Below are positions 6,377 to 29,525 of a stretch of 32,329 nt of DNA, piece after piece. Position 1 is the first letter of the stretch, and every line of letters starts with the position of its first letter. The DNA comes from a virus, in IMG/VR virus record IMGVR_UViG_3300030101_002926, positions 1-32,329 of that record; one strand, written 5' to 3'. The position numbers were made by a program, and so were the translations under genes. The notes below the pieces were generated by a model. It had not been told where the DNA came from and did no database searches. It saw only the letters and a program-made list of their open reading frames with translations.

Positions 6377-6427
6377 ACTTGCGAATTAAATAAAGTTGCT
6401 TAGGCTACGTATGGCTATTGTTTTCGC

Positions 6428-7131: not shown

Positions 7132-7133
7132 AA

Positions 7134-8906: not shown

Positions 8907-9370
8907 TGAGCAACAGAGCCCAAGCGCAGTATCTAAGGATTTACACGGGGGGAACTGATAAGCAGTTATGGCAGTCTTATTACGTCAATTCAACTATTTC
9001 TTTAAGCTCGAAGAGTTGGTCTTATTTTCCGTTTACCGCGGACGGGTTAATGTCATCTAGTGCAAGCGGAGGTAATACAGTTTCTTTAACTTGTCCAGCA
9101 ACTACAACCGCTATTTCTACTTTGACAGAAGCGTTAAATAATCAATACTTAGTCGAATTAAAAGTATATGAATTTGATTCAAGATTAAGCAATGTTGCTC
9201 CACAATCTAATCAATCTTTAATTGTTAATTTCTTAGGAGTGATAACAAGTATTGGGGGAAGTTTTGAAACGTTAAACGTAAATATTGGTTCGAGTATTAG
9301 CCCAGTGGGGGCCTCATGTCCTCCGAGGTCATTTACTACTGATTTAATAGGGAACCCCATACGATTATGA
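8906..9370 (+). CDS. Minor tail protein following tape measure
   Basis: 154 aa, beta-rich with no signal peptide. Two paired-strand segments (LWQSYYVNSTISL, LVELKVYEFD) and a conserved-looking tail CPPRSFTTDLIGNPIRL are visible. By position, it corresponds to the lambda gpM/gpL zone, that is a distal tail or tail-tip protein. Its stop TGA overlaps the next ATG (9367), so it is coupled to the large tail tip protein. Exact family uncertain. Confidence 0.6.
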   Translation: MSNRAQAQYLRIYTGGTDKQLWQSYYVNSTISLSSKSWSYFPFTADGLMSSSASGGNTVSLTCPATTTAISTLTEALNNQYLVELKVYEFDSRLSNVAPQSNQSLIVNFLGVITSIGGSFETLNVNIGSSISPVGASCPPRSFTTDLIGNPIRL

Positions 9371-11823: not shown

Positions 11824-11828
11824 TAATT

Positions 11829-12200
11829 ATGGCAGCTAATTTCCCATCATTAACGCCAAGCACCAGAGTTTACACTCCCGGTTCTGTTGCTAGTAGTAAT
11901 CTTGGTCATTTATCGGGAGAACAAACAGCGGTTAGACATTCAAGCGTTTCTTATGGTCATAGATTAACAATGACGTTTGTTTCTGTTACAAGAGCTCAAC
12001 AACAAAGCCTCGTAAACCATTTTGCATTTCATGGCAGTTTCGAGCCTTTCGACCTTTCCACAGAAACATTAGTTGCAACGAATTTAAGTTTCCCGACTGG
12101 TTATAAATGGAGATATTCAGAAAGTCCTACGATTGAAGAAATAGACGGTCAAATTAATATCTCTGTAAGTCTTGAATTGTTGCCACCATATACAATTTAA
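11829..12200 (+). CDS. Minor tail protein, paralogue A
   Basis: 123 aa, beta-rich. Pattern: FPSLTPSTRVYTPG, then HRLTMTFVSVTRAQQQSLVNHF, then LLPPYTI at the end. The central 'H.(L/I)T..(F)..(V/L).(R/Q)AQ...' stretch recurs in the next gene, so the two are paralogues. Such short proteins lie next to gpJ in marine and proteobacterial siphoviruses and are presumed tail-tip components. ATG follows the previous stop by 5 nt. Confidence 0.6.
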   Translation: MAANFPSLTPSTRVYTPGSVASSNLGHLSGEQTAVRHSSVSYGHRLTMTFVSVTRAQQQSLVNHFAFHGSFEPFDLSTETLVATNLSFPTGYKWRYSESPTIEEIDGQINISVSLELLPPYTI

Positions 12201-12203
12201 AAA

Positions 12204-12743
12204 ATGCTTGATTATCCTGACACAAGGTATCCAAACTCAATAAGTTACGACGTAGGTCGTTTAAATGTAAGTGAATCAAGCACTTTATCTAGTGGCCCGA
12301 TCAGGTTTAAACGATCAAATGTTTTAACGTCACATACGATAACTTTTAGATACTTAGATTTAACGCAAGCTCAGGTATCAGAATTTAGGCAACACTATTT
12401 AGACGCCGCAGGGACACATTCAAAATTTAAAATTCCACAAACTGTTTTTGGTGCTGCTGGTATAACCTCTTCTAACTCTTTTTATAGATACGCCTCAACA
12501 CCAAATGAAAACCAAAAGGGTGTTTTTCATGATATAGACATTGAAGTAGTTGTATTAACAGGGGTAGACCTTACAGCGAATTTAAGCAGCGGCGGGGGTG
12601 CTGATACTTCAAGCTCAACTACTAGCGGGTTTGCAATATTTGCGGGCACATCTCCTTTTTATTTATTTTGTAAGGACGCGGCGGGACATTCAAGTTCTGA
12701 CCTAGAATATACGTTAAAAGGCGGGAACGCGGCGGGATTATGA
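12204..12743 (+). CDS. Minor tail protein, paralogue B
   Basis: 179 aa. The N-terminal ~120 residues parallel the upstream gene: YPDTRYPNSISYDVG, HTITFRYLDLTQAQVSEFRQHY, then a VFHDIDIEVVVL strand. The C-terminal ~55 residues are a Ser/Gly linker and a short domain not present in paralogue A. The stop overlaps the next ATG (12740). Probably a tail-tip protein that links to the fibre encoded next; this is inferred from position. Confidence 0.6.
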   Translation: MLDYPDTRYPNSISYDVGRLNVSESSTLSSGPIRFKRSNVLTSHTITFRYLDLTQAQVSEFRQHYLDAAGTHSKFKIPQTVFGAAGITSSNSFYRYASTPNENQKGVFHDIDIEVVVLTGVDLTANLSSGGGADTSSSTTSGFAIFAGTSPFYLFCKDAAGHSSSDLEYTLKGGNAAGL

Positions 12744-13930
12744 GCACAACAGTTAAAGTCCAGATTCAGCAACGTGTTGATACCGCCTCGGCATGGACAA
12801 CCGCAAACCCAACACTTTTAAGTGGTGAAATAGGCTGGGAAAGTGACACTAAAAAATATAAGATTGGGGATGGTTCAACGGCATGGACTTCGCTGGCGTA
12901 TGCCCCCGGATCGGGAGGATATACAGCAGGAACAGGCGTTTCAATATCTGCATCAAATGTAATAACAGCTAGCGCGGTAGCTTTAACTCAGGTTTTCACG
13001 GCTGCCAACCAAACGGCTCATTTAGCTTTAACAACGCAAGAGGGTGATGTTGTTGTTAGATCAGACGAGAATAAAAGCTATGTAAGAAATAGTGGAACGG
13101 CTGGCAGTATGGCAGATTTTACCCTGCTTGCTACCCCGACCGATGCGGTACTTTCTGTTAATGGAAATACTGGGGCAATAACGGCTGATCAACTCGCGGC
13201 TGCAATAGAAAGCGCAACAGATTCAAATACTTTTACCGATGCTGATCATACAAAGTTAAATAGTGCTCTTACAACTTCTGATCTATTAGATGAGGATAAT
13301 TTTGCAACTAATAGCGATTCAAAAGCAGCTAGTCAACAATCAATAAAAGCTTATGTTGACGCAAACGCAGCAAATACAACTTATTCAATTTCTTGTGTAG
13401 ACGGTGATAACTCAGACGAAGAAAAAATAAGATTAACTGATAGCGGTTCAGGTACTGATGACATTGTTTTAGAAGCTGGTACGGGTTTATCTATTGCAAG
13501 ATCAAGCGACAAAATAACTTTCACAAATACAGTTTCTAATACTGATACGCAACTAACACAAGAGCAGGTCGAAGATTTTGTTGGTGGAATGTTGACGGGC
13601 AATACAGAAACAGGGATTACTGTTACTTATCAAGACGCTGATGGAACGATTGATTTTGAAGTTGATTTATTAGATGAGGATGATTTTGCAAGTAATTCCG
13701 ATACTAAGCCAGCATCGCAACAATCTATTAAGGCGTATATAGCAGCTAATACAAGTGCAGGTGGCGGCACGACTGGAGGCGGGAGTGATCAGCATTTTCT
13801 TGAAATGGATCAGGTTATTACGACTTCGTATCAACTAACTGCTAATAAAAATGCAATGTCTGTTAGTCCTTCGCTAAACTCAGGGGTAGTTATAACTGTC
13901 CCTTCTGGGGCGACTTGGGTAGTTCATTAA
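12740..13930 (+). CDS. Tail fibre protein with tropism-determinant-type N-terminus
   Basis: 396 aa. The N-terminal ~55 residues carry the motif VQIQQRVDTASAWTTANPTL, then LSGEIGWESDTKKYKIGDG and a W, the attachment module found at the start of many phage fibres. A 30-residue element beginning LLDEDNFATNSDSK and ending SIKAY occurs twice, near residues 182 and 312 (13280 and 13661 in DNA), and is common in marine phage fibres. The end (SGATWVVH) stops short of an obvious receptor domain, so the fibre may be completed by the next two proteins. Receptor unknown. Confidence 0.75.
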   Translation: MSTTVKVQIQQRVDTASAWTTANPTLLSGEIGWESDTKKYKIGDGSTAWTSLAYAPGSGGYTAGTGVSISASNVITASAVALTQVFTAANQTAHLALTTQEGDVVVRSDENKSYVRNSGTAGSMADFTLLATPTDAVLSVNGNTGAITADQLAAAIESATDSNTFTDADHTKLNSALTTSDLLDEDNFATNSDSKAASQQSIKAYVDANAANTTYSISCVDGDNSDEEKIRLTDSGSGTDDIVLEAGTGLSIARSSDKITFTNTVSNTDTQLTQEQVEDFVGGMLTGNTETGITVTYQDADGTIDFEVDLLDEDDFASNSDTKPASQQSIKAYIAANTSAGGGTTGGGSDQHFLEMDQVITTSYQLTANKNAMSVSPSLNSGVVITVPSGATWVVH

Positions 13931-13939
13931 TTTTTTGCT

Positions 13940-14455
13940 ATGTCTCCATATGGTTCTGTAAAAGTTAATACGATTGTCTTTGATGATAGCGGCGATCAGT
14001 CCTTAGCTTTGACAAATGTAGCCCCAAAAAATAGCCCTTCATTCAGTGGCACGATTACAAGTACGGCGACTATTAATCAAACTGGTGAATTTGATATTAA
14101 CGGGCAATATAACCAGACGATCCCAACAGGATTAGCAACAACAGGGGCCGTAACGGTCGATGCATCTTTAGGCAATTATTTTACTTTAGGCCCAATGACA
14201 GGAAACATTACGGGTTTTACTTTTACTAATTTACCTGCAAGTGGAAAAGCTTATTCATTCACTATTGAGTTAACTCCAAGCGCAACACCTCATACTGTTA
14301 CATGGACTCCTACTGTTGGAGGTGCAACGAAAAACTGGTATTGGTCTGGAAGTGCCCCAACATTAGAAGCAAATAAACCGATCTTAGTAAATGTTGTTAC
14401 AGATGACGGTGGTGAAAAATTTAGAGCGATAGCAAGTAAAGGGTTTACCGCTTAA
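13940..14455 (+). CDS. Fibre-associated protein
   Basis: 171 aa, beta-rich, Thr/Ser/Gly-heavy. Opening MSPYGSVKVNTIVFDDSG is followed by SPSFSGTITSTATI, a repeat-like strand motif of fibre shafts ('P.F.GT.t..'). The C-terminal ~90 residues read as a jelly-roll-like beta domain, with GKAYSFTIELTPS and NWYWSGSAPTLEANKP. It lies between two fibre genes 10 nt and 2 nt away. Likely a fibre shaft or tip subunit. Confidence 0.6.
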   Translation: MSPYGSVKVNTIVFDDSGDQSLALTNVAPKNSPSFSGTITSTATINQTGEFDINGQYNQTIPTGLATTGAVTVDASLGNYFTLGPMTGNITGFTFTNLPASGKAYSFTIELTPSATPHTVTWTPTVGGATKNWYWSGSAPTLEANKPILVNVVTDDGGEKFRAIASKGFTA

Positions 14456-14457
14456 TT

Positions 14458-15558
14458 ATGGACCCCATAACTCAAAGAATCTGGATGCCCGGCGGCGACA
14501 GTAAGACTGATGCCGTTTGGTTTACAGATGCCGAAACAAATTCTACAGCGGCAAGCTTAAATGTTTTAGATCTATATAATCCATCAGCTACTGAGACGGC
14601 TTGGAACGTTCCGGCAGGGGTTACAAGTATTTCTGTTGCTGTTATGGGTTGTGGTGGTGGCGGTCAGCAAAAAGGGGCAGGGACTGCAAAACCTTTTGCA
14701 TGTGGGGGAGGTGAAATGGTTTGGAGAAATAATATAAGTGTTACGGGTGGTCAGACTTTATACGTTCATGCAGGCTGTGCTCATGGTAGAAGTGCAACAG
14801 CTACATCATTAACAGGTTTTACAACTAATTATTTAAAATATATAAGTGATATGAATGGTAATTTAAGCGATTGGACTGATTCTGCTGTTACTGATTATTC
14901 ACGAGCTTCTTATATAAGGGCTTGGGTTAGCGGATATAATAAATTTTTAGTTTATGCAGCGGGTGCCAAATTAAATGAAAAAGATGGGGCTGATGATCAA
15001 GCGTCAATAATGCAGCAATCCATTTATGGAACATTAGGCACTGAAAATACTGATTGGAGACATAACCCCGGTGGGGATGGTGGAGGTACAAGTAATGAAA
15101 ATACTTGGTGGCTTAACAGACCTAGAGGTTCAGGTGGCGCAGCAGGTTATACGGGTTCAGGGGGAGATGGCGCTAATTCTACGGGAGGCGACGGAAACGC
15201 CGGTTCTGGTGGTGGTTCTGGTGGTGGTTCATCTGGACCACTGCAAGGTAATCCAAATACTCAATCTCGAGGTGGACATACTTTTATGTGGGGTGAGGGC
15301 AACAATGGGGCTGCTGGTGATTTTATACAAAATGATGCTTTTGAAGCAGAGTCTAACGGTGGAGACGGATCAAAAACAGGAACAGGGGCCACTAATAATC
15401 CTCCTGACGGTTTAGGGCAAGGTGGCGGCGGTGGTTCTGAAGGTTGGGCAGGCATGAACGGTACAAAACCCGAGTTTGACGGTTGGGTTCGTATTGTTTG
15501 GTCTACAGACGGAACTACAAGAAACTTCCCTTCAACAAATGTTGCCTATCCCGGGTAA
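14458..15558 (+). CDS. Glycine-rich tail fibre/adhesin tip protein
   Basis: 366 aa. N-terminal residues ~1-60 resemble other fibre-tip proteins (WNVPAGVTSISVAVMGCGGGG, the start of the 'glycine-rich' fold). Residues ~195-330 hold long Gly/Ser/Asn runs like the polyglycine-II sandwich of T4-type gp38 adhesins, with loops that would carry specificity. It ends with a WVRIVWS strand, usual for this fold. It is thus the best candidate for receptor-binding tip. Low-complexity Gly codons give spurious long frames on both strands here. Confidence 0.65.
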   Translation: MDPITQRIWMPGGDSKTDAVWFTDAETNSTAASLNVLDLYNPSATETAWNVPAGVTSISVAVMGCGGGGQQKGAGTAKPFACGGGEMVWRNNISVTGGQTLYVHAGCAHGRSATATSLTGFTTNYLKYISDMNGNLSDWTDSAVTDYSRASYIRAWVSGYNKFLVYAAGAKLNEKDGADDQASIMQQSIYGTLGTENTDWRHNPGGDGGGTSNENTWWLNRPRGSGGAAGYTGSGGDGANSTGGDGNAGSGGGSGGGSSGPLQGNPNTQSRGGHTFMWGEGNNGAAGDFIQNDAFEAESNGGDGSKTGTGATNNPPDGLGQGGGGGSEGWAGMNGTKPEFDGWVRIVWSTDGTTRNFPSTNVAYPG

Positions 15559-15583
15559 CGTCTACAATTTATGAAAAAAGCTA

Positions 15584-16039
15584 ATGACTGAGTACAGAAA
15601 AAGAGCTGACGGAACGGTTGTTAATTCAACTGATCTTTTTAAAGCTGCTAATAAAAACACTTCTTTTCCTGCAATACCAACAGATGATAATTGTGATTCT
15701 GTAGGTTGGGATATTGTACAAACAACAACACCTCCCACTATTACACCCCCTTATGAAATATTTGAACGTGATGGAGTAGAAGAATCTGGGGGAAAATGGG
15801 TTGAAAAATACAAAGTAACGACAAGAGATACATCTACTGTTGACGCAGAAAACGCAAAGACAGTCAGATCAGATAGAGATAAACTTCTTTCTGAGAGTGA
15901 TTGGACACATACTTCTGATACAAAGTTATCAACAAGCAAGCTTGCAGAATGGGCAACATATAGACAAGCATTGAGAGATATAACAAGCGATTCTAATTTT
16001 CCTAGTGGTGATATTACTTGGCCTACAAAACCGTCTTAG
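15584..16039 (+). CDS. Tail fibre assembly chaperone
   Basis: 151 aa. The C-terminal ~55 residues carry the well-known chaperone signature: RDKLLSESDWTHTSDTKLS, then LAEWATYRQALRD and NFPSGDITWPTKPS. This pattern (R..LL..SDW....D......W..YR..LRD.......WP..P) is found in fibre assembly chaperones and XkdW-type proteins of many phages, especially cyanophages. The N-terminal part is variable. Position directly after the fibre genes fits. Confidence 0.8.
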   Translation: MTEYRKRADGTVVNSTDLFKAANKNTSFPAIPTDDNCDSVGWDIVQTTTPPTITPPYEIFERDGVEESGGKWVEKYKVTTRDTSTVDAENAKTVRSDRDKLLSESDWTHTSDTKLSTSKLAEWATYRQALRDITSDSNFPSGDITWPTKPS

Positions 16040-16092: not shown

Positions 16093-16293
16093 ATGGTAAG
16101 AAAAATTTTAGATGGCATTAGCGTTGCATCTTTCGCTATGTCTTTAACCTTAATTTTGGGCGGGGGTTATATCTATTTCAAACGGGCTGATTTTGTTAAT
16201 GGAATGATGCTAACGATTCAAGATCAAATGATTGATGTAATACAAAATCAAATAAAAATACCTGGCAAAACTGGCCCAGCTCTACCTTTCTAA
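16093..16293 (+). CDS. Small single-pass membrane protein
   Basis: 66 aa. A basic start (MVRKILDG) leads to a hydrophobic segment (~9-27, containing ASFAMSLTLILGGGYIYF), then an amphipathic helix and a Pro/Gly-rich C-terminus. Its stop overlaps the next ATG (TAATG at 16291-16295). Small proteins of this build are frequent at the ends of cyanophage late regions; the function is unknown. A lysis accessory or membrane-anchored assembly role is possible but not shown. Confidence 0.6.
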   Translation: MVRKILDGISVASFAMSLTLILGGGYIYFKRADFVNGMMLTIQDQMIDVIQNQIKIPGKTGPALPF

Positions 16294-16808
16294 TGAAAGA
16301 ATATTTTCTACCTGGACTGCTAGGAATAGGGCTGATTTCTAGTAACTTGATGTCCTTAACTTTGCTATCTAATTCAAATAAAGATGGCATCCCTGATCTG
16401 GCTCGATTACAGACGACTGAGAACTCGGCAAGTCAACTGCGATACAACCGATCTGAGTCTGGTGATTTAGAGGTAGTAGTTACACATAACATGCATTCTC
16501 CTCGCACAACCCTTCACTCTGAAGAACGTTCTCGGTGGAATGGAAAAACTGACTATATAAGAAAAGAATATATTGCTCATCATCCTGTAGATAGTGCAAG
16601 GCTTACATCTGAATACCTTGCCTGCATTAAAAACAAAGGAAGTGCTGAATCCCAGGGAGAGATAGTTGGAACTTCGCTAGTTTCTGCAACTCCAGTAGGT
16701 AGCACATTGTCTGGAATCCCAATAGTAGGCTGGATTGCGAATGCAGTAGCAATTAGGAAATCTTCTCAATTCGGTAAAGAGATTGGCGGTAGTTTTGTAG
16801 ATTGCTAA
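16293..16808 (+). CDS. Protein with N-terminal hydrophobic segment, unknown
   Basis: 171 aa. Residues ~3-26 are hydrophobic (FLPGLLGIGLISSNLMSLTLL), a membrane anchor or uncleaved signal. The body is polar with a His-rich part (THNMHSP, IAHHPVDSARL), and near the C-terminus a second hydrophobic patch (GIPIVGWIANAVAI). Starts by stop/start overlap with the previous gene and is directly followed by a GTG-initiated gene. Not recognised; the trio 16093-17429 looks like one functional set. Confidence 0.55.
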   Translation: MKEYFLPGLLGIGLISSNLMSLTLLSNSNKDGIPDLARLQTTENSASQLRYNRSESGDLEVVVTHNMHSPRTTLHSEERSRWNGKTDYIRKEYIAHHPVDSARLTSEYLACIKNKGSAESQGEIVGTSLVSATPVGSTLSGIPIVGWIANAVAIRKSSQFGKEIGGSFVDC

Positions 16809-17429
16809 GTGAAGATTGAAAAGATAGAAGTAGATAAAGTTGGAATACCAAAAATTAATAGTCTGCCTACTACTAAACAAGTAACAAGAACTTTAAATGT
16901 AGAAAAGCCAGGGTTTGATTTTATCTTTCCGTTCTTTGAACCGATGAGATATAACCCTGTAAAAATGCAAACTTTAAAAAAACCTCCTACCCCAACACCC
17001 CCTGACGACGAAACAAAACCACAAAAAAACAAGAAAAATAATACAGATTTAGATACAGGTTTACCTGATATAGGAGAACTAGAAATTGAATGTCCTGCGA
17101 AAGATCAACAGTATCGGTTGGGGGATATAAGAAATGCAAAGGCAAAAGAGAAGGTAATCGGGTTCGAGCTGGTCGGGGATAAGTGCCTTGAGATATGGGG
17201 GCCAACCAATATTGCAGACAAGTATCTCCCTAGTTCGAGCGTCGCTGCAACCACATTCGGAATAACTGTTGTGGCTACAACTGCCGCTACATTGACACCC
17301 ATATTAACCAAAGCTCTTAAACCAATATTTAAAAAATTAATAGCTAAAGTTAAAAAAATGATTGGTAAAAAACAAAAAGTATTATCTACTTTTGAGCGTC
17401 GGAAGTTACAGAGAGATCGGAAGAAATAG
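16809..17429 (+). CDS. Protein with C-terminal membrane anchor, unknown
   Basis: 206 aa, GTG start at 16809 immediately after the previous TAA. The N-terminal half is Pro/Lys-rich and charged (PPTPTPPDDETKPQKNKKNN). A middle domain has two Cys (ECPAKDQQYRLG, GDKCLEIWGP). Near the C-terminus a hydrophobic stretch (~150-170, TFGITVVATTAATLTPIL) is followed by a very basic tail. This is a plausible C-tail anchor. The final 44 nt overlap the end of a convergent gene on the other strand, so the transcripts of the two genome arms meet here. Confidence 0.55.
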   Translation: MKIEKIEVDKVGIPKINSLPTTKQVTRTLNVEKPGFDFIFPFFEPMRYNPVKMQTLKKPPTPTPPDDETKPQKNKKNNTDLDTGLPDIGELEIECPAKDQQYRLGDIRNAKAKEKVIGFELVGDKCLEIWGPTNIADKYLPSSSVAATTFGITVVATTAATLTPILTKALKPIFKKLIAKVKKMIGKKQKVLSTFERRKLQRDRKK

Positions 17430-18066
17430 CGTGGGTATGTTCAACATTAGGTGGTGAAACTACTTTTACATCTGCACATATCTTTGCCATTTCTCCAACA
17501 AAAATATTTCCTAGCCTGATGTGTTTTGAGCAGGTCGCCAATCTCGACATTTCGTAATTTAATCTTTTTGATGCTAAAGAGGCCTCATATAATTCGACTT
17601 GTCTTTCTAATCCCTTGCGGCAAAGCTTCTGGTATCTGAAAGATAATGGAATACTGAATGTAGCGGTTATGCCGCCGTTTAAACTTGTGTTCGACTCTTG
17701 CATCCCTGTTCTCACTGACTCTGTTCTAATTATTTTTGTTGGCTCATCTGGTTCTCCATCTCCAATTGGATTGTTATCTGCATCAAAAGCACCCTCTATA
17801 TCTTTCGTTGAATAGACAGGTCTAGAATAATACGGCTGATAAGGCGACCCAAAACTATTAGTATGACTGAGGAATGGTGATATATTTAATGTCGCTCCTT
17901 GACAGACTTGGTTTGCTCCTAGTTGGTATTGGAACTGGCGAGAAGGCACAACTTGTACTGCCTGGTTGACCACTGACCCGGTAGATTGTGATGATGTGTT
18001 AATACTTTGTGCGAAGGATTTAACAGGTAAAGTAATAAATAAGAGAGCTAAGTATAGATGCTTCAT
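17386..18066 (-). CDS. Exported protein with signal peptide, unknown
   Basis: 226 aa. A clear Sec signal peptide (MKHLYLALLFITLPVKSFAQ, cleavage likely after AQ). The mature part has QCQ-type Cys in NQVCQGATLNISPF, and more Cys in a C-terminal region (KLCRKG, ATCSKHI, KICADV), so disulfides in the periplasm or outside are plausible. The middle is Pro/Asp-rich. Proteins with a 'CQGAT.N..P' segment are, to my recollection, recurrent in marine cyanophages, without a known job. Start ATG overlaps the upstream stop (ATGA). Last gene of the minus-strand arm. Confidence 0.65.
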   Translation of the reverse strand: MKHLYLALLFITLPVKSFAQSINTSSQSTGSVVNQAVQVVPSRQFQYQLGANQVCQGATLNISPFLSHTNSFGSPYQPYYSRPVYSTKDIEGAFDADNNPIGDGEPDEPTKIIRTESVRTGMQESNTSLNGGITATFSIPLSFRYQKLCRKGLERQVELYEASLASKRLNYEMSRLATCSKHIRLGNIFVGEMAKICADVKVVSPPNVEHTHAISSDLSVTSDAQK

Positions 18067-18500
18067 TGAAACGTACTTGTACTGTCGCTGATACTTTCTA
18101 TAGTTTGCTCCTCAATTATTTTTGTCATAGATTTTATCCCTGGTGTTTCTAGCGTTTCATAGTAACTAAAGGATGCACCCTCATTGACGATTGAATATTG
18201 AGGCTTAGTTGTTAGATCTGGCATAACATAAGTTGTAGCTGTTCCTGATACTGTTCCTGCTGTTTTAACAAAACCAGATGGTGCAATATTATTAGTAGAA
18301 GGCTTGACATTATGACCACCAAAAGTTAGCTCATACCCATTCCTAAATTCAAACACGGTCAGGTCGCGTTTTAAAATTGTCTTCGTCTCGGTGTGATTTT
18401 GTAAAACTCCCTGCTGAAAATTTGGCACTATTTTTTCTGCCCTAACTTGTGGGGCAAAAGTAATAAATAAAAGTGCAATCTTAGTCCACTTTGATTTCAT
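18063..18500 (-). CDS. Exported protein with signal peptide, unknown
   Basis: 145 aa. Basic N-terminus MKSKWTK, hydrophobic core IALLFITFAP and a probable cleavage after VRA. The mature protein is Thr/Ser/Gly-rich, likely beta. It includes DLTVFEFRNGYELTFGG and SFSYYETLETPG. Start overlaps the previous gene by 20 nt and its stop overlaps the next start by 4 nt. Not recognised; its arrangement in a chain of exported proteins implies a shared role at the envelope. Confidence 0.6.
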   Translation of the reverse strand: MKSKWTKIALLFITFAPQVRAEKIVPNFQQGVLQNHTETKTILKRDLTVFEFRNGYELTFGGHNVKPSTNNIAPSGFVKTAGTVSGTATTYVMPDLTTKPQYSIVNEGASFSYYETLETPGIKSMTKIIEEQTIESISDSTSTFQ

Positions 18501-18957
18501 TAATAATTTGCCCTAAAGCAACCGTATTTGCTCCTCCAGCCGTCAAAGTTATTGCGGTATCTGTGATCGTGCCAGCGAGCGACCCTGCTGTGCCTGAAGC
18601 TGTGGTCACAATGTCTGAGAAGTTAGGTGTGGCTCCTGTGGTAACTGCACTCGTAGGCAAAGTATCGCCTGTATTTAGAGAAGCACTAAAACTAAATGCT
18701 GCACCTGGAACATCTTGTGTCGCTGCAATGGCCCCTGGAGTATAAATCCCTGAAGTCACTGTGCCAGCACTAACAGTATTAGCCGTGGTGCCATCGGTTG
18801 TATCTACCCCTGAACCTGAAATAGCAAACGATGTACCTATACGTTTTGCGTGAGTCGCTGCCGCCCCCACGGTCAAAGAAGTTGATTTAGTAATGCTGTG
18901 CGTAAGATCGGCGTTAGCTGGAGCTGCTAATAGCAAAAGAAGAAATAGTTTTTTCAT
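18481..18957 (-). CDS. Exported Thr/Ala/Gly-rich protein, unknown
   Basis: 158 aa. Signal peptide MKKLFLLLLLAAPANA. The mature part is very low in charge and rich in Thr, Ala, Gly and Ser, with alternating hydrophobic/polar residues (SFSASLNTGDTLPTS, TITDTAITLTAGG). This is the composition of extracellular beta-structured or fibre-like proteins. ATG overlaps the preceding stop (GCATGA). Possible surface or envelope component; function unknown. No catalytic motif is visible, so it is not an evident endolysin. Confidence 0.6.
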   Translation of the reverse strand: MKKLFLLLLLAAPANADLTHSITKSTSLTVGAAATHAKRIGTSFAISGSGVDTTDGTTANTVSAGTVTSGIYTPGAIAATQDVPGAAFSFSASLNTGDTLPTSAVTTGATPNFSDIVTTASGTAGSLAGTITDTAITLTAGGANTVALGQIINEIKVD

Positions 18958-19352
18958 GCGTTATTTGGATCAGGTTTTTTAGTAATGACTTGCACCTCAG
19001 TTGGAGGATATTTAACAAGGATAGTGTGTGTATTACCTCCTCCACCATCGCCGTTTTTCTTTTTAGCCGTTGCACCCTTCGATACATTTAGTCCATAACT
19101 TGTCAGGACCGTTCCTAACATCGCACTCGCAAAACTGGTGTCGGGTCGTTGGTCAGGCATCTCAAATTCTATATTTCCTATTTTAATTACTGGTGGAAAT
19201 GAGATATAGGCTAGGCTTAAAATACTCAATGACCACACTAGGACAAGCGTTTTGACCCCATTACTTAAATAAAATAGGATCATATCTTGATACTCAGGCA
19301 TATCATCTTCGTCTTTTACTTCTATGCTTTGAGTTTGGTTTTTGTCAGCCAT
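18954..19352 (-). CDS. Membrane protein, possible holin-like
   Basis: 132 aa. An acidic N-terminus (~1-28), a hydrophobic helix ~33-55 (GVKTLVLVWSLSILSLAYISF), a short loop, an amphipathic/hydrophobic segment ~73-90 (FASAMLGTVLTSYGLNVSKG), then a basic and glycine-rich C-terminus. Holins often have this size and layout, but no family is recognised. It is the first of four genes coupled by overlaps down to 17386, and follows the exonuclease by 31 nt. Confidence 0.55.
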   Translation of the reverse strand: MADKNQTQSIEVKDEDDMPEYQDMILFYLSNGVKTLVLVWSLSILSLAYISFPPVIKIGNIEFEMPDQRPDTSFASAMLGTVLTSYGLNVSKGATAKKKNGDGGGGNTHTILVKYPPTEVQVITKKPDPNNA

Positions 19353-19383
19353 AAGCTAAGTCTGCGGGGTCGTTGATGATATT

Positions 19384-20166
19384 TTAATCATGTAATGTCG
19401 GAATAAACACCCCCTCAATAGACGTTGGTGGTTCCCATTCAACTGGTTTCTCAGCCGTAAAGTCATATTCATTCTGTCTTAAAATCCTTGCACACCTAGC
19501 TTGAGAAAGAATATCTGGTATATCAGGATCTTTTGCTGCTGCCTTTAAATAAGCAGCTCTAACCTTCTCCCACATCTGCAACTCGCTAGTACAGTCGGCA
19601 AGTAACTTCTTTGCTGTAACGGGGCCGTAGCCTTTTAATCCAGGGAATCCATCAGTTGCATCACCCGTTAAAATCGTTTGATAAAAAGATTGATCAGCAT
19701 CAAACTGTTGAATCCTTTGGATCTTGCCTTCAGCGTTTAAATGATTACCTGGAATAGTTTTTAAATCTTTATCCCTTGAGTAGATAACATCTCCACTCTC
19801 TTGATCTGCAAGGATGCCAACAACATCATCGGCCTCCGTTAATGGAAGCGTGATGACTTCAAATGTGTCACGTAACCATTGGCGTAATACTGAATACCCT
19901 GCTGGCTTTCTAAATTTACGTCTGTTCGATTTGTAATTTGAATAGACACCGTACCTGAAGTTACTGGAGTCACCCAAGGCCAAGAGTATTTTGTGGTCTG
20001 GGCATAGCTTTTGTATGCGTTCAATCTCTGCGGTAACAGCATGTTTAGCCTCATCTAGGTTTGTTTGATAAGTCCATACTTCTGGACTCCACTCGCATTC
20101 ATATTCTGCGGATGTCATAGCCCGATAAGCATCAGGCTCAATGTCATAAAAAAGTTTTTTTTCCAT
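19384..20166 (-). CDS. 5'-3' exonuclease, T7 gp6-like (FEN/RNase H family)
   Basis: 260 aa, close to T7 gp6 (300). Metal-binding acidic residues occur in FYDIEPDAY, in EADDVVGILAD (paired D) and in SRDKDLKTIPG. The helix-3-turn-helix is GDATDGFPGLKGYGPVTAKKLL-like (in two parts, DATDGFPGLKGYGP and VTAKKLL). The C-terminal 'ARILRQNEYDF' stretch closely mirrors gp6. It removes RNA primers and degrades DNA during replication and recombination. It lies last in the replication block, after the primase-helicase and three small genes. Confidence 0.92.
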   Translation of the reverse strand: MEKKLFYDIEPDAYRAMTSAEYECEWSPEVWTYQTNLDEAKHAVTAEIERIQKLCPDHKILLALGDSSNFRYGVYSNYKSNRRKFRKPAGYSVLRQWLRDTFEVITLPLTEADDVVGILADQESGDVIYSRDKDLKTIPGNHLNAEGKIQRIQQFDADQSFYQTILTGDATDGFPGLKGYGPVTAKKLLADCTSELQMWEKVRAAYLKAAAKDPDIPDILSQARCARILRQNEYDFTAEKPVEWEPPTSIEGVFIPTLHD

Positions 20167-20245
20167 TGTTTTTCCAATGTTTGATTAAAAGTTTGAGTTG
20201 ACGTATTCGCTCCTCTGCATGGGCGATTTTCTCATCGGGAGTCAT
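20144..20245 (-). CDS. 33-aa coupled microprotein
   Basis: ATG (20245) overlaps the TGA of the 70-aa gene (ATGA), and its own stop lies 23 nt inside the exonuclease gene. It encodes a basic helix: MTPDEKIAHAEERIRQLKLL then IKHWKNNGKKTFL. Chained overlaps make translation likely even if the peptide only maintains coupling to the exonuclease start. Function unknown. Confidence 0.4.
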   Translation of the reverse strand: MTPDEKIAHAEERIRQLKLLIKHWKNNGKKTFL

Positions 20246-20454
20246 CCGTAATTGTCCAAGAGGTGAAGGAGAGCTGTTACATAGCCGTCGTTCCAAATCT
20301 CTTGAACCTTGTTTCCTTCTTCATGTGCTTCTTTGTAAGCTTCTTCAGCTTTCAGCTTCAGAGTTTTGACGTAAATCATTTGATTCTGGGTCAACCTCCC
20401 TGACGCTTCTAATGTTTTCGAGGTCAACGATTCTTGATGAGTGATCTCTGTCAT
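20242..20454 (-). CDS. Small hypothetical helical protein
   Basis: 70 aa. Predicted mostly helical: QNQMIYVKTLKLKAEEAYKE then EIWNDGYVTALLHLL. It overlaps the preceding small gene by 110 nt in another frame, which is unusual; one of the two may be spurious, or both are used. Of the two, this one has the better helical pattern and is coupled to the 33-aa peptide downstream. Confidence 0.5.
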   Translation of the reverse strand: MTEITHQESLTSKTLEASGRLTQNQMIYVKTLKLKAEEAYKEAHEEGNKVQEIWNDGYVTALLHLLDNYG

Positions 20455-20599
20455 TTTCTTGGTAGATAACGGTGCATGATGTTGGATAAGTTTCAGTAAC
20501 CATTGCTTGTTTCCAATGTGATGCTCGGAAAAAGATGAATACTGCTTGGGCTCGATTGAGCTGATTCCAGTTCAGAACTGGGTGTCCTGGTCGTGCCAT
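20345..20599 (-). CDS. Small hypothetical protein, beta-rich
   Basis: 84 aa from ATG 20599 (MARPGHPVLNWNQLN), which lies 28 nt inside the end of the primase-helicase gene. The frame remains open further upstream inside the primase, but that part is only a shadow of it. Strands such as AQAVFIFFRASHW and SCTVIYQEN suggest a small beta domain. Shares 110 nt with the next gene in a different frame. Function unknown. Confidence 0.45.
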   Translation of the reverse strand: MARPGHPVLNWNQLNRAQAVFIFFRASHWKQAMVTETYPTSCTVIYQENDRDHSSRIVDLENIRSVREVDPESNDLRQNSEAES

Positions 20600-22155
20600 T
20601 TGTGAGCTAGTTGTTGAGTTGTTTCGTCGAACTCGAAAGAGCCTGCATAACCACATCGGCCCAACATGCGGTTTTTTAAGCATTTCGAGTGAGTGAGGTT
20701 TGATCCTCTCGATCTGTTTAAGGCCCATATCGTGTCGGCAAGTTGAACAATTGAATGTGAGTTCCTTATGTTGTGCAGCTCTGGGGCAGCTCCGTTCTCA
20801 AAGTTCTCTCCAGAAGAGGAGCGATTAAGATGACTAATAGCAAATACTGTGCATTTAGTAGCCGCAATAAAGCTTCTTATCTTTGTAACGAGAGCGTCTA
20901 ACTGCCTTGTGTCTTGTGCTAATCCACTTCCTAAGATCGTTAAATGATCTAAGTAAATGTGTTGGCAACCAAGACTTCTGACCATGTAATTCATCCGCTG
21001 GAGGATGACCTTTTCATCGAGTGATCCAAAGTGATCAAATAACTCAAGCCTTCCAGAACCAGTGACAAACTTGTCAGCTTGGGCAATGTTTTGTACTTGC
21101 TCATCAGTTAGCCCTGCATAGTTTTCCCTGGCATGAATTTGAACGCCTGCTGCCTGACCAACAAAGCGGAAGACCGCTTCTTCGGCTGTTTCTTCAAGGC
21201 CAATCCACCCCACTTTTATTCCATTTTCCATATCGCCAATAGCTAATTTTCTGGCAAAGGTTGTCTTACCCACGCCTGAACCCGCTATTAGGATGATGAG
21301 TTGATTGTCGTAAAAAGGAGTTTTGTCATTCCAAAACGGAAAAGCACAATTAGTAGCCTTTCTCTCTGGTGGTTTGTTAACTAAGCCTGCATAAGTAGAT
21401 GCAGATTTAATGCCATCAGGTCGGATCTCCTTGGCTGCTTTGATCGCTTCATTAACTGCATGACTTCCTAGTTCTTGCAGCGTGTCGTTGGCATCTTTCT
21501 TGGGAAAGACAACACGCCTAACTTTGCCTGCTTCAAAAAGACTAACGAGATCACTCGCTGCATTTTCTCCAGGCTCATCCATATCTGTGGCGATATAGAC
21601 AGTTTTAAAAGCACTAAAGAAATCAATGTTTTTCTTGACAAAATTTGCTGCATTTTGAGCCCCATTTGGAACCGAAATTCCTACGACTGTTCCTCTGGTG
21701 GAGTGGTAGATGCTTGGTGCATCCATTTCTCCTTCGCAAATAGCGATTGCGTCGTGGTGGCTAGGATTTGCGAGATGTGAACCAAACCCTGCGACTTTCT
21801 TTGCGTCTCCTCTCCAAGAAGTTTTTCCATTTCTAATTTTTTGTGCAATGTTTACGCCTTTTTTATCCCTGTATTGGAAGGCCACTCCATCGGCGTATTT
21901 GTAAACGCCGTATTGATCTAAAACTTTTTTAGGTATTCCTCTGTAGTGATCTGCATCCCAAGGAACGGTTAGATCAACGTCGATCATTGGCCGAATAGGT
22001 TTCGGTTTGGAAGTTTTTTCAACTTCTTCTCCTTCGCCTTTCGTGTATTTTTGGCAGACGAAACAGTACGAGTGGTCTGTGTAGACCGCCAAAGCATCAC
22101 TGCTATCGCAGTCGGGGCAAGGATCGTGCCGAAGAAAACGGGATTCACCCATCAC
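20572..22155 (-). CDS. Primase-helicase, T7 gp4-like
   Basis: 527 aa (T7 gp4 is 566). An N-terminal zinc-binding domain has Cys13, Cys16, Cys31, Cys34. The TOPRIM primase core has EGEMDA (Glu141) and a DMDEPGE motif (Asp191, Asp193). The RecA-like helicase has a Walker A GSGVGKTT (~292-299), Walker B YLDHL (Asp403) and the SHLNR sensor. The C-terminus ends in an acidic-then-Phe tail (DQDTQF); in T7 the terminal aromatic residue contacts the DNA polymerase. It primes and unwinds DNA at the fork. Its start overlaps the zinc-ribbon gene by 11 nt. Confidence 0.95.
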   Translation of the reverse strand: MMGESRFLRHDPCPDCDSSDALAVYTDHSYCFVCQKYTKGEGEEVEKTSKPKPIRPMIDVDLTVPWDADHYRGIPKKVLDQYGVYKYADGVAFQYRDKKGVNIAQKIRNGKTSWRGDAKKVAGFGSHLANPSHHDAIAICEGEMDAPSIYHSTRGTVVGISVPNGAQNAANFVKKNIDFFSAFKTVYIATDMDEPGENAASDLVSLFEAGKVRRVVFPKKDANDTLQELGSHAVNEAIKAAKEIRPDGIKSASTYAGLVNKPPERKATNCAFPFWNDKTPFYDNQLIILIAGSGVGKTTFARKLAIGDMENGIKVGWIGLEETAEEAVFRFVGQAAGVQIHARENYAGLTDEQVQNIAQADKFVTGSGRLELFDHFGSLDEKVILQRMNYMVRSLGCQHIYLDHLTILGSGLAQDTRQLDALVTKIRSFIAATKCTVFAISHLNRSSSGENFENGAAPELHNIRNSHSIVQLADTIWALNRSRGSNLTHSKCLKNRMLGRCGYAGSFEFDETTQQLAHKWHDQDTQF

Positions 22156-22342
22156 CCCCCCTAATCGGAATATCAGGAACTAAACCTCTTGTTTTGCCAG
22201 CATTAACAGCTAAGTATTCAAGAGTGGTAAATGTTTTGTGGCACTTTTTACAAATCCGATAACGCCTAATTTCACCATTGGAACTTTTAGGCTGACTATC
22301 GACTTTTGATTCTTCATGTCCACAGTTAGGACATTTAATCAT
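22145..22342 (-). CDS. Small zinc-ribbon protein, NrdR-N-terminus-like
   Basis: 65 aa from ATG 22342. It has a GGGAGG ribosome site 6 nt upstream; a TTG two codons earlier is less likely. Two CxxC pairs (Cys4/Cys7 in CPNCGHEESKV, Cys31/Cys34 in CKKC) are separated by a basic segment ending RRYRICKKCHKTFTTLEY. This is the zinc ribbon of NrdR repressors, without the ATP-cone domain. It could bind nucleic acid or regulate. It overlaps RusA upstream by 8 nt and the primase downstream by 11 nt, so it belongs to the replication operon. Confidence 0.7.
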   Translation of the reverse strand: MIKCPNCGHEESKVDSQPKSSNGEIRRYRICKKCHKTFTTLEYLAVNAGKTRGLVPDIPIRGGDG

Positions 22343-22709
22343 CGTCAACCTCCCAAGTAATTTGAATGATGATGTGAGAGTCTTTAATTTTCACTTTTGT
22401 AAAAGATAAATTGAGATTTGGAATAACTTTTACGCTGTCATCCGTCCACAGAATGTTTTTAGCTGCGTCCATAACTGAGCCAGATTTATTATCAAGATCT
22501 CCCATTTCTGCCCCACGAAAAAACATGTCTAGTCGGTGTACTTTTGTAAGTGGTTCAAGTTTCCATTGTTCTTTTAAATGAACCTTGGCTTCTTTTAACC
22601 AACTCTTGTACTGAGGTGGATTGTATGGACGCTTTTGGCCCATAAATGATCTTGGTCTTGGCTTAGATATTGGACGTATAGGTAAATCAATCTGCTTAAA
22701 CTTCAGCAT
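22335..22709 (-). CDS. Holliday junction resolvase, RusA-like
   Basis: 124 aa, the family length. N-terminal PISKPRPR and the RPYNPPQYKSW loop, then the catalytic motif MGDLDNKSGSVMDAAK with Asp71 and Asp73, followed by WTDDS (Asp90/91). These positions nearly coincide with Asp70, Asp72 and Asp91 of E. coli RusA. It resolves branched DNA from recombination or before packaging, the role played by gp3 endonuclease I in T7. Overlaps SSB by one base. Confidence 0.9.
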   Translation of the reverse strand: MLKFKQIDLPIRPISKPRPRSFMGQKRPYNPPQYKSWLKEAKVHLKEQWKLEPLTKVHRLDMFFRGAEMGDLDNKSGSVMDAAKNILWTDDSVKVIPNLNLSFTKVKIKDSHIIIQITWEVDDD

Positions 22710-23269
22710 TAAAAGGACTTTTCAGCGTCTTCCTTTAATGAATAGCCGCCTTGAACACTGCCAAAGACATCATCATCAGAAGGAACAGAGCCGCCTGAAT
22801 ACTCCACATAATCAATAATCATTACCTTCATTGGATCAAGAGTCATGCCTGAGCCTGACTTCGCAGACCAAGGAACAATCTTAAAAGCAATAATGCCTTT
22901 TGATCCGTTGCCTATTTCTTTACTAACAGGCCACTTTTCTAAACGTGAATCAATAACATTTGGGCCTTGAGTTTTAGTTCCATTGTTGTCAATAAAACAT
23001 CTTTTTTTAAATTTTACGCAAAGTTTACTTGGGTCTTCTTTGTCTGGGTTGCAGTTAAACCACCAAGTATTTTTCTTGGCATCTTTTCCATGTATTTCTT
23101 CGAACTTATTCTCCATTAACATTGTCCATTCAATAGTTTTTGGATCTTTGCTATCTAAAAGCAATTCCATTGTCCATTCATCAGGCTTACCGTCTTCGTA
23201 TGCCTTTCTTGCTTCTCCTAATCCTTTAAACCAGCGAAGTTCTCCTGGTGGTGTTTTAACAAGTTCCAA
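22709..23269 (-). CDS. Single-stranded DNA-binding protein, T7 gp2.5-like
   Basis: 186 aa. An OB-fold type beta protein, with DEWTMELLLDSKDP and WWFNCNPD segments, then GIIAFKIVPWSA and KVMIIDYVEY strands. The C-terminus is acidic and ends in an aromatic residue (KEDAEKSF), the hallmark by which gp2.5 contacts other replisome parts. Start is uncertain: TTG at 23269 has GGGGG 7 nt upstream, and an ATT at 23287, preceded by AAGG, could add six residues (DGGIN before LELV). Coats ssDNA at the fork. First gene after the RNA polymerase, 84 nt away. Confidence 0.85.
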   Translation of the reverse strand: MELVKTPPGELRWFKGLGEARKAYEDGKPDEWTMELLLDSKDPKTIEWTMLMENKFEEIHGKDAKKNTWWFNCNPDKEDPSKLCVKFKKRCFIDNNGTKTQGPNVIDSRLEKWPVSKEIGNGSKGIIAFKIVPWSAKSGSGMTLDPMKVMIIDYVEYSGGSVPSDDDVFGSVQGGYSLKEDAEKSF

Positions 23270-23353
23270 GTTGATGCCCCCATCAATAAGTTTGCCTTAT
23301 GAACATACAGCACTCTTCACCCCCTGTCGTGTCGTATGAACAATATTTTCATT

Positions 23354-25972
23354 TCAAGAAAATAAGTAAGGATTTGTTCCAATTAGTCTTGGGTCGAGAC
23401 TGCCTTGTTTCGGTAGTTCAGGCAATAACACCCCTGTAGACAACTGGATTTCGTCAACAAAGCCTATTAACCAATTAGGGGCGTAAAGCTCGTTAAAAGT
23501 ATCGTGAAGTGTCTCATGAGCCTTGCCAGCATTGGCCGCATGTACCGCAAAACAATCGTGATTTGTCAGGACTTGTATGTTTTGCTCCACGGCCTTGTAA
23601 ACGAAGTTAATACAAAAAGCAGAATCCCAACTATGTGTAAAGTTCGCGGCTATTCCTTTATTGGCTTGTGTCGCACATAGAGGTGCATCTGTGGGTTGAT
23701 CTTTAATATTCATCGTTGCATGTTTGCCAAATAACATTGTCTGAATCCTTTTAATCTGTGGTTCTCTATCTGCAATTCTCATGGGCCATCCGCTTTGAGT
23801 TGTCCACTCCAGGGCGTAACCCTTCGACATTACTTTTCTTGTTACTTTGTGGAGCCATTTCTTAAACTCAAGGCAAGGTTTAATTCTCTGTTTCGTTTCA
23901 TCCCATAAATGACTCGCTAAATATTTTGCAGGGATCGCTACCTCGTATGTGAAATTTTCAAGCGGTACATATCCCAGATGTTCATCTAATCGCTCAACCA
24001 AGGAATCACATAAGGACATATATGAGCCGCCATACGGAGCTGCAAGAATTGGTTGCTTACATAAAGACCTGTTGATTCCTTTTTTTAGCCATATTTGTGC
24101 TAACGCTTTGTCTCTTTCTTCTCCGAACTGAAGATCGTGAACCAATCTTTCTGTGACTTTTTCAGCGACAAGGGTGTAAAGATCCCTTCGTTCGTCACCA
24201 AATAAATTACACTCCTTACCAACCTTTTCTGACCTCAACAAGGCCGCAAGTATCCCGCACCCTGAAGTAGTCTGATCGAAGCGAACTGGGCATCCTGTTT
24301 TACCTGTTTCGAGTACCTCTTTTACCCCCTTGCAAGCCTGTAAAAATTGCCAGGGATCGTTAGCGTTTCGCCACAATTCAAGTTTTCCAAGTGGGTCTTC
24401 TGCCGCTGCCTTCATCAAATCAATATTCTTTTTCCCCCAGTTCAGACGTTCATCCCATGATTTTCTCCCGTATCCATAATGTCCGGCAGCTCCTTTCAAT
24501 AACCAATCAAAAGCCTCGTCGTTAACTGGCAGCTTTTCAGCAAAGTCCAGCATGGCCTTTTCGTAGTCTGGGCCTTGATGAGATACATATTTGTTAGATG
24601 TATAAAGTCTTGATCTATGGTCAGCGTGGTAAGCCTGATAAACAGTCCTATCTGCTAATCCTTCAGCCTCTTGTAACGCACGTTCAATCTTGATTCTTCT
24701 GGGTCTGTTTTGTTCTCTGTCTCTATGAGCCATCGAAGCAAGACGATTCCTAATCTTTAAGTCCTCTGGAGCTGGATCTTGCCCTAACCGTTCAGGAACA
24801 TCTAAGGGAACCTTTGCACAAGGCCACAAGCCCTCTGTTCCGTTCTCCCATGTATTTCTTTGGCATTCGATTATGCCCCGCTTAACGTGAAGTGGAGTCG
24901 CTTGGAGGTGGTTTGTCGCTACAAATGTTTTTGTTAGCTCTGCTTTTCTGTAATGCTCTATTGCTGTGGTGTCTTTTTCTTCAGCGTCGTGAATTGGAAC
25001 TCTGACAAAACATTCTTCGTTGCCTAATCTTCCTCCTCCATACAATCCAGGCCAAGGAGCTGGTGGAGATACCATTGCCGAATAAGCAACCTTATAAGTA
25101 GAAGGTGGGCAGCTCTTGATTACTTTTTCAGCGTGATCTGTAGGAACTACAAATTTGGGAGTAGTACGACCAATCTTTCTTGTAATAACTTGAATTAAGC
25201 CTGTATGTATCAAATGATCTAAAAGGAACTGACCAATATGAAGGCGACTTAAATCATTAAAAGGAAGAACAGGACAACCCATCTTCCTCATTATTTCCAT
25301 TGTGCTGATCTTGTTACGGCTCAAGCCTTGCTTCATTAAGTGCCGCAGCTCCACCGGACTTTTATCTGCCAGCCTCATTAATCGGATCTCTTTTTCAACC
25401 GCAGCTCCTAAGCCTTGACAGAAAGTGGCGATCCTTTGCCTTCTACTTAATTGATCGAGGGTCGCTACCAGGGCGATGGTTGCAACATGCTCTGGAGATT
25501 TAAAAGGATCAAAGAAAGGAATTGCAGCTCCATGAAATCTTGCTTTGTCTGGATTCTCTACAAATTCAATAAAAGTTTTATTTAATCGACTGCTTAAATC
25601 ATCAACTAATAATCCATATAATTTTCTGCCATAAATTAATGCACTTTCTTTTCCTATCTCTTTAAGTTTCCTTTCATTAGTTCTATGTGTTTCTTCAGCT
25701 CTTTTTTCTGCACGTAATTGTCGTGCTAATTGCTCTTTTTCAAGCGTCTGTATATCTTGCAACTCAGAAAAACGGGTGTTTACGACCACGTTATTCGCAA
25801 CACTCTCGCAATGCCAGCTCTTATTGGTATCAAAAGAAAGTGTATAACTTGCTCTACGAGGTCTAAGATGTTGCTTATGCGAATTATGAGTTCGCAACCA
25901 GCCCAATGATAGCAAGGGATCTGAGCATTTTGCGTTGATCGTTTTTAAGGTAGAAAAAATATGTGTTTTCAC
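23354..25972 (-). CDS. DNA-directed RNA polymerase, T7 single-subunit type
   Basis: 872 aa from GTG 25972 (T7: 883). Motif A has Asp566 in the DQTTSGCG segment; motif B has Arg635, Lys639 and Tyr647-Gly648 with exactly T7 spacing; motif C has NHDCF with Asp806. The segment NKGIAANFTHSWDS matches the T7 'ESGIAPNFVHSQD' region. The end is YLFS in place of T7 FAFA. The part between motifs A and B is shorter than in T7. T7-like similarity begins near residue 67, so a GTG at 25789 (residue 62) is a real alternative start, leaving a ~220-nt leader. It transcribes the phage genome from its own promoters. Confidence 0.95.
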   Translation of the reverse strand: MKTHIFSTLKTINAKCSDPLLSLGWLRTHNSHKQHLRPRRASYTLSFDTNKSWHCESVANNVVVNTRFSELQDIQTLEKEQLARQLRAEKRAEETHRTNERKLKEIGKESALIYGRKLYGLLVDDLSSRLNKTFIEFVENPDKARFHGAAIPFFDPFKSPEHVATIALVATLDQLSRRQRIATFCQGLGAAVEKEIRLMRLADKSPVELRHLMKQGLSRNKISTMEIMRKMGCPVLPFNDLSRLHIGQFLLDHLIHTGLIQVITRKIGRTTPKFVVPTDHAEKVIKSCPPSTYKVAYSAMVSPPAPWPGLYGGGRLGNEECFVRVPIHDAEEKDTTAIEHYRKAELTKTFVATNHLQATPLHVKRGIIECQRNTWENGTEGLWPCAKVPLDVPERLGQDPAPEDLKIRNRLASMAHRDREQNRPRRIKIERALQEAEGLADRTVYQAYHADHRSRLYTSNKYVSHQGPDYEKAMLDFAEKLPVNDEAFDWLLKGAAGHYGYGRKSWDERLNWGKKNIDLMKAAAEDPLGKLELWRNANDPWQFLQACKGVKEVLETGKTGCPVRFDQTTSGCGILAALLRSEKVGKECNLFGDERRDLYTLVAEKVTERLVHDLQFGEERDKALAQIWLKKGINRSLCKQPILAAPYGGSYMSLCDSLVERLDEHLGYVPLENFTYEVAIPAKYLASHLWDETKQRIKPCLEFKKWLHKVTRKVMSKGYALEWTTQSGWPMRIADREPQIKRIQTMLFGKHATMNIKDQPTDAPLCATQANKGIAANFTHSWDSAFCINFVYKAVEQNIQVLTNHDCFAVHAANAGKAHETLHDTFNELYAPNWLIGFVDEIQLSTGVLLPELPKQGSLDPRLIGTNPYLFS
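25874..25896 (-). other. Anticodon-arm-like site, candidate attP core
   Basis: On the minus strand TGCGAA-CTCATAA-TTCGCA (25878-25896) forms inverted 6-bp arms around 7 nt. The 7 nt equal the anticodon loop of the tRNA-Met 150 bp away. Together with flanks, 11 bp (25882-25892) are identical to 26045-26055, and a TAAG follows at the same offset in both. Tyrosine recombinases that target tRNA anticodon arms use this geometry: inverted arms and a 7-bp overlap. Its use as attP is inference. Confidence 0.4.
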
Positions 25973-25973
25973 A

Positions 25974-25990
25974 GTGCGAACGGTGCGAAC
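25974..25990. repeat. Tandem GTGCGAAC repeats upstream of RNA polymerase
   Basis: GTGCGAAC occurs at 25974-25981 and 25983-25990 (period 9). The core TGCGAA also occurs, in one or other orientation, at 25794, 25878 and 25891. These look like protein-binding sites, for integrase or a repressor. Confidence 0.55.
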
Positions 25991-26011
25991 TTACTTAAAC
26001 AAAAGTTGTAA

Positions 26012-26084
26012 TGGGGGTCGCGAGGATCGAACTCGCCTTAGCCAAATTATGAGTTTGGTGCATTCACCAGATTGCTAGACCCCC
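26012..26084 (-). tRNA. tRNA-Met (anticodon CAT)
   Basis: A complete cloverleaf read on the minus strand. The acceptor stem GGGGGTC/GACCCCC is perfect (26078-26084 with 26013-26019), with discriminator A at 26012. There is a short D arm, anticodon arm CCAAA-CTCATAA-TTTGG (CAT), variable CTAAG, and T arm GCGAG-TTCGATC-CTCGC. No CCA is encoded. An elongator-type Met tRNA is more likely than initiator, since the first pair is G-C. The integrase stop codon lies inside its 5' end. It may serve as functional tRNA, as the attachment site, or both. Confidence 0.92.
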
Positions 26085-26917: not shown

Positions 26918-26918
26918 T

Positions 26919-26927
26919 GGTCGTGGT
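26919..26927 (-). promoter_or_regulatory. ACCACGACC motif before integrase
   Basis: Exact copy of the nonamer, read toward the integrase and 1 nt before its start. See the other copies at 29526, 30135, 30699 and 31822. This copy shares an extra upstream CATCTAACCC with the 31822 copy. Confidence 0.5.
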
Positions 26928-26934
26928 TTGTGGG

Positions 26935-27562: not shown

Positions 27563-27593
27563 CGTTTTCGTTTCGATCTGTAAAGCAATATGA

Positions 27594-29508: not shown

Positions 29509-29525
29509 GATAAAAAACTCCTAAA

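Follow-up and report, generated by a model that had tools for sequence, protein, structure and literature searches.

The gp161-gp167 gene module of cyanophages lies in the endolysin slot of smaller phages and is a candidate host-exit system

In T4-like cyanophages, Sullivan et al. 2010 (PMC3037559) described five hypothetical genes that occur in 15 of 16 genomes, often together with a plasmid stability protein; they proposed functional reasons for the genes staying together, suggested that the plasmid stability protein aids cassette mobility, and left the function unassigned. We infer that their T4-GCs 218, 219, 234, 235, and 237 and the plasmid stability protein, compared through their description and not through a mapping of the numbers, correspond to the module called gp161-gp167 here. 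Kongari et al. 2018 compiled a list of spanin-less phages that includes P-SSP7, P-HM1/2, P-SSM2/4/7, Syn1, Syn9, Syn19, Syn33, S-SM1, and others; as an alternative to spanins, they offered a protein with a C-terminal transmembrane domain (TMD) combined with an outer-membrane protein (OMP), and they considered that cyanophage hosts perhaps have fragile outer membranes. Here, we analyse a copy of the gp161-gp167 module in a 32,329-nucleotide stretch of viral DNA (IMG/VR record IMGVR_UViG_3300030101_002926, in full; hereafter the window), where three plus-strand genes face four minus-strand genes at positions 16093-19352.

Homologues of these genes are found in identical convergent order in Syn9 and in the uncultured podovirus S37-C6, with several of them named gp161 to gp167. 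Judged by homology, the seven genes make up a copy of the module known from T4-like cyanophages. The original prediction for this locus, made from its letters, recognised none of them as a known system, which no longer holds: the cluster is the conserved gp161-167 of cyanophages and figures as a hypothetical cluster in Sullivan et al. 2010. The window copy shares with the T4-like cluster its homologous proteins, the convergent layout, and the overlap of the gp164 and gp165 3' ends, but it resides in a smaller phage, between the tail-fibre assembly and exonuclease genes, and its gp161 precedes gp167, where the T4-like cluster has it beyond gp162. What is new here is the position of the module in the lysis slot, the cluster itself having been described already.

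In three groups of smaller phages, the module fills the slot that holds the endolysin cassette in sister phages. In the first, the G9 podoviruses, S37-C6 and window-type contigs display the order exonuclease-161-167-166-165, converging on 164-(163)-162 and fibre genes. Their sister S31-C1, from which the module is absent, has the exonuclease followed by a GH19-type lysozyme and then by small genes converging on fibre genes; in another sister, S38-C3, a lysozyme similar to that of S31-C1 converges on a fibre-like gene. Among T7-like phages, whose namesake T7 has its holin and spanins in the fibre-to-packaging region, P60 and S-CBP42 carry an endolysin and two small transmembrane (TM) proteins between the fibre gene and that of the terminase small subunit, and Syn5 retains the small-protein pair of this slot. 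A reduced, single-strand version of the module, 164'-161-166-165, lies between the fibre and packaging genes of P-SSP7, NATL1A-7, and two contigs (L107/L108), the assignment of 164' being weak (E 3e-5 to 0.016). In the siphoviruses, MED4-117 and L129-type contigs have the module after the tail genes; in S-CBS3 and KBS-S-2A, the run of structural genes ends with an endolysin gene, and small membrane proteins are encoded close by. Endolysin carriers among the Kyanoviridae keep this gene at no single common site. Separately, we observed that small membrane proteins of the lysis slot (phrog_26178/phrog_2738 or similar) adjoin the module at L129:14502-14681, L120:16707-17239, and L107:9656-9817.

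Module and endolysin also avoid each other at the level of whole records. The gp165 gene was detected in none of 13 phages with a P60-type endolysin (11 picked by their endolysin, plus P60 and S-CREM2), and the P60-type endolysin family in none of 13 module-bearing records. The absence of co-occurrence across these 26 records corresponds to a Fisher p value of 2e-7, which counts related genomes as if they were independent; because they are not, the separate phage groups weigh more than this value. The Kyanoviridae with a P60-type endolysin (B23, S-B68, S-N03, S-H34, ME01, and S-CREM2) are without gp165. Sequences resembling gp161 were weakly matched in four endolysin-bearing Kyanoviridae and in S-CREM2, and these matches cross stop codons; such traces beside an endolysin are suggestive and would suit a holin that serves either partner.

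Of the three functions put forward in the original prediction, namely envelope modification, lysis, and superinfection exclusion, the association with the envelope stands, and lysis or exit is favoured since the module takes the place of endolysin cassettes in corresponding positions; exclusion and mere modification of the envelope stay in consideration as less probable readings. We consider that the module probably constitutes a cyanophage-specific host-exit system, acting in lysis or envelope disruption. In a more far-reaching version, the module would be a lysis system of a categorically new type, made up of several proteins and working with neither a recognisable endolysin nor a lipoprotein spanin; it would explain spanin-less escape and be swapped as a block with endolysin cassettes across myo-, podo-, and siphoviruses. 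This version is put forward tentatively, and we would sooner doubt than assert it. A major flux of marine carbon runs through the lysis of Prochlorococcus and Synechococcus by phages, and a conserved hypothetical cluster tied to the lysis slot yields a gene-level, testable proposal for how cyanophages open cells. The link to lysis, if true, would also correct the labels 'plasmid stability' and 'OMP1', which are misleading on many records.

The proteins themselves were characterised by computing hydrophobicity, Cys positions, and charge for each of them and by assigning signal peptides by eye. By these means, gp161 to gp164 were classed as membrane-anchored and the remaining three proteins as exported, and the convergent cluster of seven membrane or exported proteins that had been predicted was recovered with its open reading frames (ORFs), strands, Sec signal peptides, and hydrophobic segments as claimed (Table 1). 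The genes abut or, as also predicted, overlap, by 1 to 44 bp, with the longest overlap being antisense (gaps between neighbours, in order, of -1, 0, -44, -4, -20, and -4). The module follows both the structural and the replication gene run and sits where their ends converge, separated by 53 bp from the gene for tail-fibre assembly and by 31 bp from that for the exonuclease. This arrangement is far beyond chance, given that all seven proteins match PHROG families (E 1e-7 to 1e-49) and that the layout recurs across related loci.

Table 1. Genes of the module in the window, the antisense overlap at its centre, and the flanking genes
Feature	Coordinates	Strand	Family and properties
gp162 homologue	16093..16293	+	phrog_568 'plasmid stability'; 66 aa, single N-terminal TM, ends ...TGPALPF
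gp163 homologue	16293..16808	+	phrog_605; 171 aa, N-terminal TM anchor, Gly-rich C-terminal part
gp164 homologue	16809..17429	+	phrog_570; 206 aa, GTG start
gp164/gp165 antisense 3' overlap	17386..17429	both	44 bp; shared by 62/69 convergent loci
gp165 homologue	17386..18066	-	phrog_848; 226 aa, signal peptide, 4 Cys
gp166 homologue	18063..18500	-	phrog_650, DUF6322; 145 aa, signal peptide
gp167/'OMP1' homologue	18481..18957	-	phrog_564; 158 aa, signal peptide, Thr/Gly/Ala-rich, predicted all-beta
gp161 homologue	18954..19352	-	phrog_2714/phrog_721, DUF6450; 132 aa membrane protein
Tail-fibre assembly chaperone	15584..16039	+	last structural gene ahead of the module; flank, outside the module
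Exonuclease	19384..20166	-	last replication gene ahead of the module; flank, outside the module

The membrane protein gp161, which matches DUF6450 only, has a strong hydrophobic segment, a second, weaker one, and charged ends, making it a holin candidate. The C-terminal residue of gp163 is a Cys, as in 48 of 50 relatives. In gp164, a Pro-rich, Cys-bearing N-terminal domain precedes the sole hydrophobic segment (residues 145-163) and a cationic tail with a net charge of +15 over the last 40 residues. The exported gp166 and gp167 display distant mutual similarity, and none of the three exported proteins has a lipobox, that is, a Cys near the signal-peptide cleavage site, so that no lipoprotein o-spanin or u-spanin is present among them. 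Exported proteins without a lipobox Cys, together with small membrane proteins, form the composition that we count in favour of lysis. Compared with a holin-endolysin-spanin cassette, the module is alike in taking the slot of P60, S-CBP42, S-CBS3, KBS-S-2A, S31-C1, and S38-C3 and in combining a small membrane protein with exported proteins, but it differs in having neither a recognisable peptidoglycan hydrolase nor a lipoprotein spanin.

A possible course of events would be as follows. The holin-like gp161 would reside in the inner membrane, where gp162, gp163, and gp164 would serve as anchors carrying periplasmic domains with Cys residues and a Pro-rich stretch, and gp165, gp166, and gp167 would be exported into the periplasm or the outer membrane. 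At the end of infection, the inner group (161-164) and the outer group (165-167) might together bridge and breach the envelope, the module thereby doing the outer-membrane job that falls to lipoprotein spanins elsewhere; the peptidoglycan step could be carried out by the module itself or by another enzyme of phage or host. Phage phiKT is reportedly equipped with a disruptin-type lysis peptide, to which gp164, by sequence alone, may be likened for its strongly cationic tail; it differs in being a large membrane-anchored protein that is part of a seven-gene set. The spanin-less list of Kongari et al. 2018 includes phiKT, and their alternative scheme would fit in outline, with gp164 as the C-terminal-TMD partner and the exported gp165-gp167 as the OMP side.

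Several observations weigh against a role in lysis. Pfam and PHROG searches with the seven proteins returned only families of unknown function and one unsupported 'plasmid stability' label, with no peptidoglycan hydrolase, lysin, or other known lysis family; nor did the seven genes turn out to be separately explained by known virion or lysis proteins, which would have spoken against the original prediction. In the window, 161-167-166-165 follow replication genes, not late genes, and in myoviruses the module lies near regA or near psbA, at no fixed lysis locus, with no clear enrichment of T4-type late-promoter octamers upstream of it. The N-terminal domain of gp164 would need to be exported without a signal peptide. 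Structure prediction offered little help: AlphaFold2 models of mature gp165 (predicted local distance difference test (pLDDT) 58, predicted template-modelling score (pTM) 0.23) and mature gp167 (pLDDT 61, pTM 0.30) were too poor for use. Syn5, S-PM2, and PSS2 lack gp165, gp161, and the tested endolysin family alike, so that the module is not the sole alternative to an endolysin. Syn9 (NC_008296, 165036-165320) has a 200-aa ORF with a match to PF18013 (phage tail lysozyme), a candidate for the muralytic enzyme of this phage. Together with an NlpC/P60 match in one relative, probably a tail-tip domain, this weakened the idea that module phages are entirely without lysozyme; the whole-genome Pfam scans covered ORFs of about 75-420 aa and a few longer ones, with most family lists ending at 25 entries. 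Finally, chromosomal copies of the module in freshwater Synechococcus, rare as they are, would be odd for a pure lysis device.

Those chromosomal copies would rather suit an envelope function, as would be expected if the exported proteins coated or altered the outer membrane, blocking other phages or changing transport without lysis. Such superinfection exclusion or host-envelope remodelling would agree with the presence of three exported proteins without an enzyme match, with part of the module following replication genes in the window, and with the name OMP1 given to gp167 in S-RSM2, where it stands beside psbA. It would not explain why the module and endolysin cassettes have repeatedly traded places at one site, nor the near-complete conservation in 15 of 16 T4-like cyanophages, as exclusion genes are usually variable; we regard it as unlikely, if the strongest of the alternatives. 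The same exchange, whose partners are endolysins and not metabolic genes, speaks against an auxiliary set that takes over photosynthetic or thylakoid membranes and sustains host membrane function. The restriction to cyanophages and the proximity to psbA, hli, or psbD in some myoviruses would be in line with such a set, but many copies are distant from psbA and Pfam revealed no similarity to photosynthesis proteins, making this reading improbable.

Slightly less probable still is that these genes close the late operon and encode parts of the virion or factors for its assembly. The module directly follows fibre genes in several phages, and, like fibre proteins, gp166 and gp167 are rich in beta structure; against this stand the signal peptides and TM segments as well as the fact that the module accompanies three unrelated virion types. 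The virion proteome of S-CREM2 is uninformative on this point because S-CREM2 lacks gp165, and its virion proteins gp174 and gp176 were ruled out as module members by a hidden Markov model (HMM) search. A mobile-cassette or plasmid-maintenance function, to which the phrog_568 label and the cassette-mobility suggestion of Sullivan et al. point, is scarcely credible for gp162, a single-TM protein of 66 aa that is conserved within a fixed block and has no toxin, antitoxin, or partition domain in PHROG or Pfam.

Host exit, the reading we prefer, is also favoured by the distribution of the module, which appears restricted to cyanophages. Searches with tblastn retrieved 375 phage records for gp167 and 408 for gp165, nearly all of them named cyanophages; the remainder are 'Marine' single-amplified genome (SAG) viruses and a single uncultured phage. 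Viral contigs yielded 76 related loci when scanned, and HMMs built from the window proteins located the block in essentially all of these; gp164 and gp165 are both present in 70 of the 76, convergent in 69, and overlapping at their 3' ends in 62. The convergent block occurs in T4-like myoviruses, Oinezvirus-type podoviruses, and siphoviruses (isolate MED4-117 and several contigs), and it appears to have been passed between unrelated cyanophages as a self-contained set. Three related freshwater Synechococcus genomes have chromosomal contigs in which 167-166-165 face a 164-like gene beside ndh/hrcA-like genes, a possibly domesticated copy; none was found elsewhere as a chromosomal gene in about 400 genomes of that Synechococcus family. 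In two such contigs, L104:159-3322 and L105:302-2601, 167-166-165 stand beside a bestrophin-like membrane gene, near ndh, with the 164-like gene in L104. Two contigs from bacterial assemblies, L084 (Nonlabens xiamenensis, 188 kb) and L087 (Prochlorococcus SAG, 189 kb), resemble whole cyanomyoviruses in size and carry the module, likely reflecting contamination or an infected cell.

Further comparisons of individual proteins were of limited yield. The low-confidence model of gp165 predicts a beta region and a long helix; VIA-align returned no match for gp167 and only helix matches for gp165 (Z up to 3.5), and sequence searches of the PDB gave nothing credible. A gp165 copy from a freshwater host matched OEP/TolC marginally (E 0.04). 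No earlier functional assignment was found in the literature on DUF6450, DUF6322, and cyanophage spanins, subscription journals lying outside this search. In Syn9 (L003:8842-9726) and relatives, the annotated starts of gp165 lie about 165 bp inside gp166, in a different frame, and homology suggests a true start near the end of gp166. The gp165 of the P-SSP7 record GU071093 (L110:8497-8940) appears split over frames into pieces of 151 and 75 aa, perhaps by a sequencing frameshift in this partial genome, and the siphovirus contig L136:9159-10100 has two tandem gp162 copies flanking gp163.

The window as a whole looks mosaic, with cyanosiphovirus head and tail genes at 1-16039 and podovirus replication genes plus the module at 16093-32329. 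In the left half, which holds the structural genes up to about 16 kb, the major capsid protein shares about 33% identity with those of S-LBS1 and S-CBS3, and tail proteins reach 97% identity to contig L129; the module and the right half resemble the T7-like podovirus contigs G304 and G305, mostly at 60-98% identity. No other contigs were found that span the junction at about 16.0 kb at high identity, and the window is either a natural recombinant or an assembly chimera with its breakpoint beside the module. Our conclusion on the module is the same for either origin, as siphoviruses carry independent copies; in contigs that share the siphoviral structural genes of the window, the module proteins are diverged, at about 35% identity. 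Going by the relatives MED4-117, S-CBS3, and Oinezvirus, the host of the window phage would be cyanobacterial. As in G9 podoviruses, a tyrosine integrase lies beside a MarR-like regulator (26075-27252), and the phage may have the capacity for integration.

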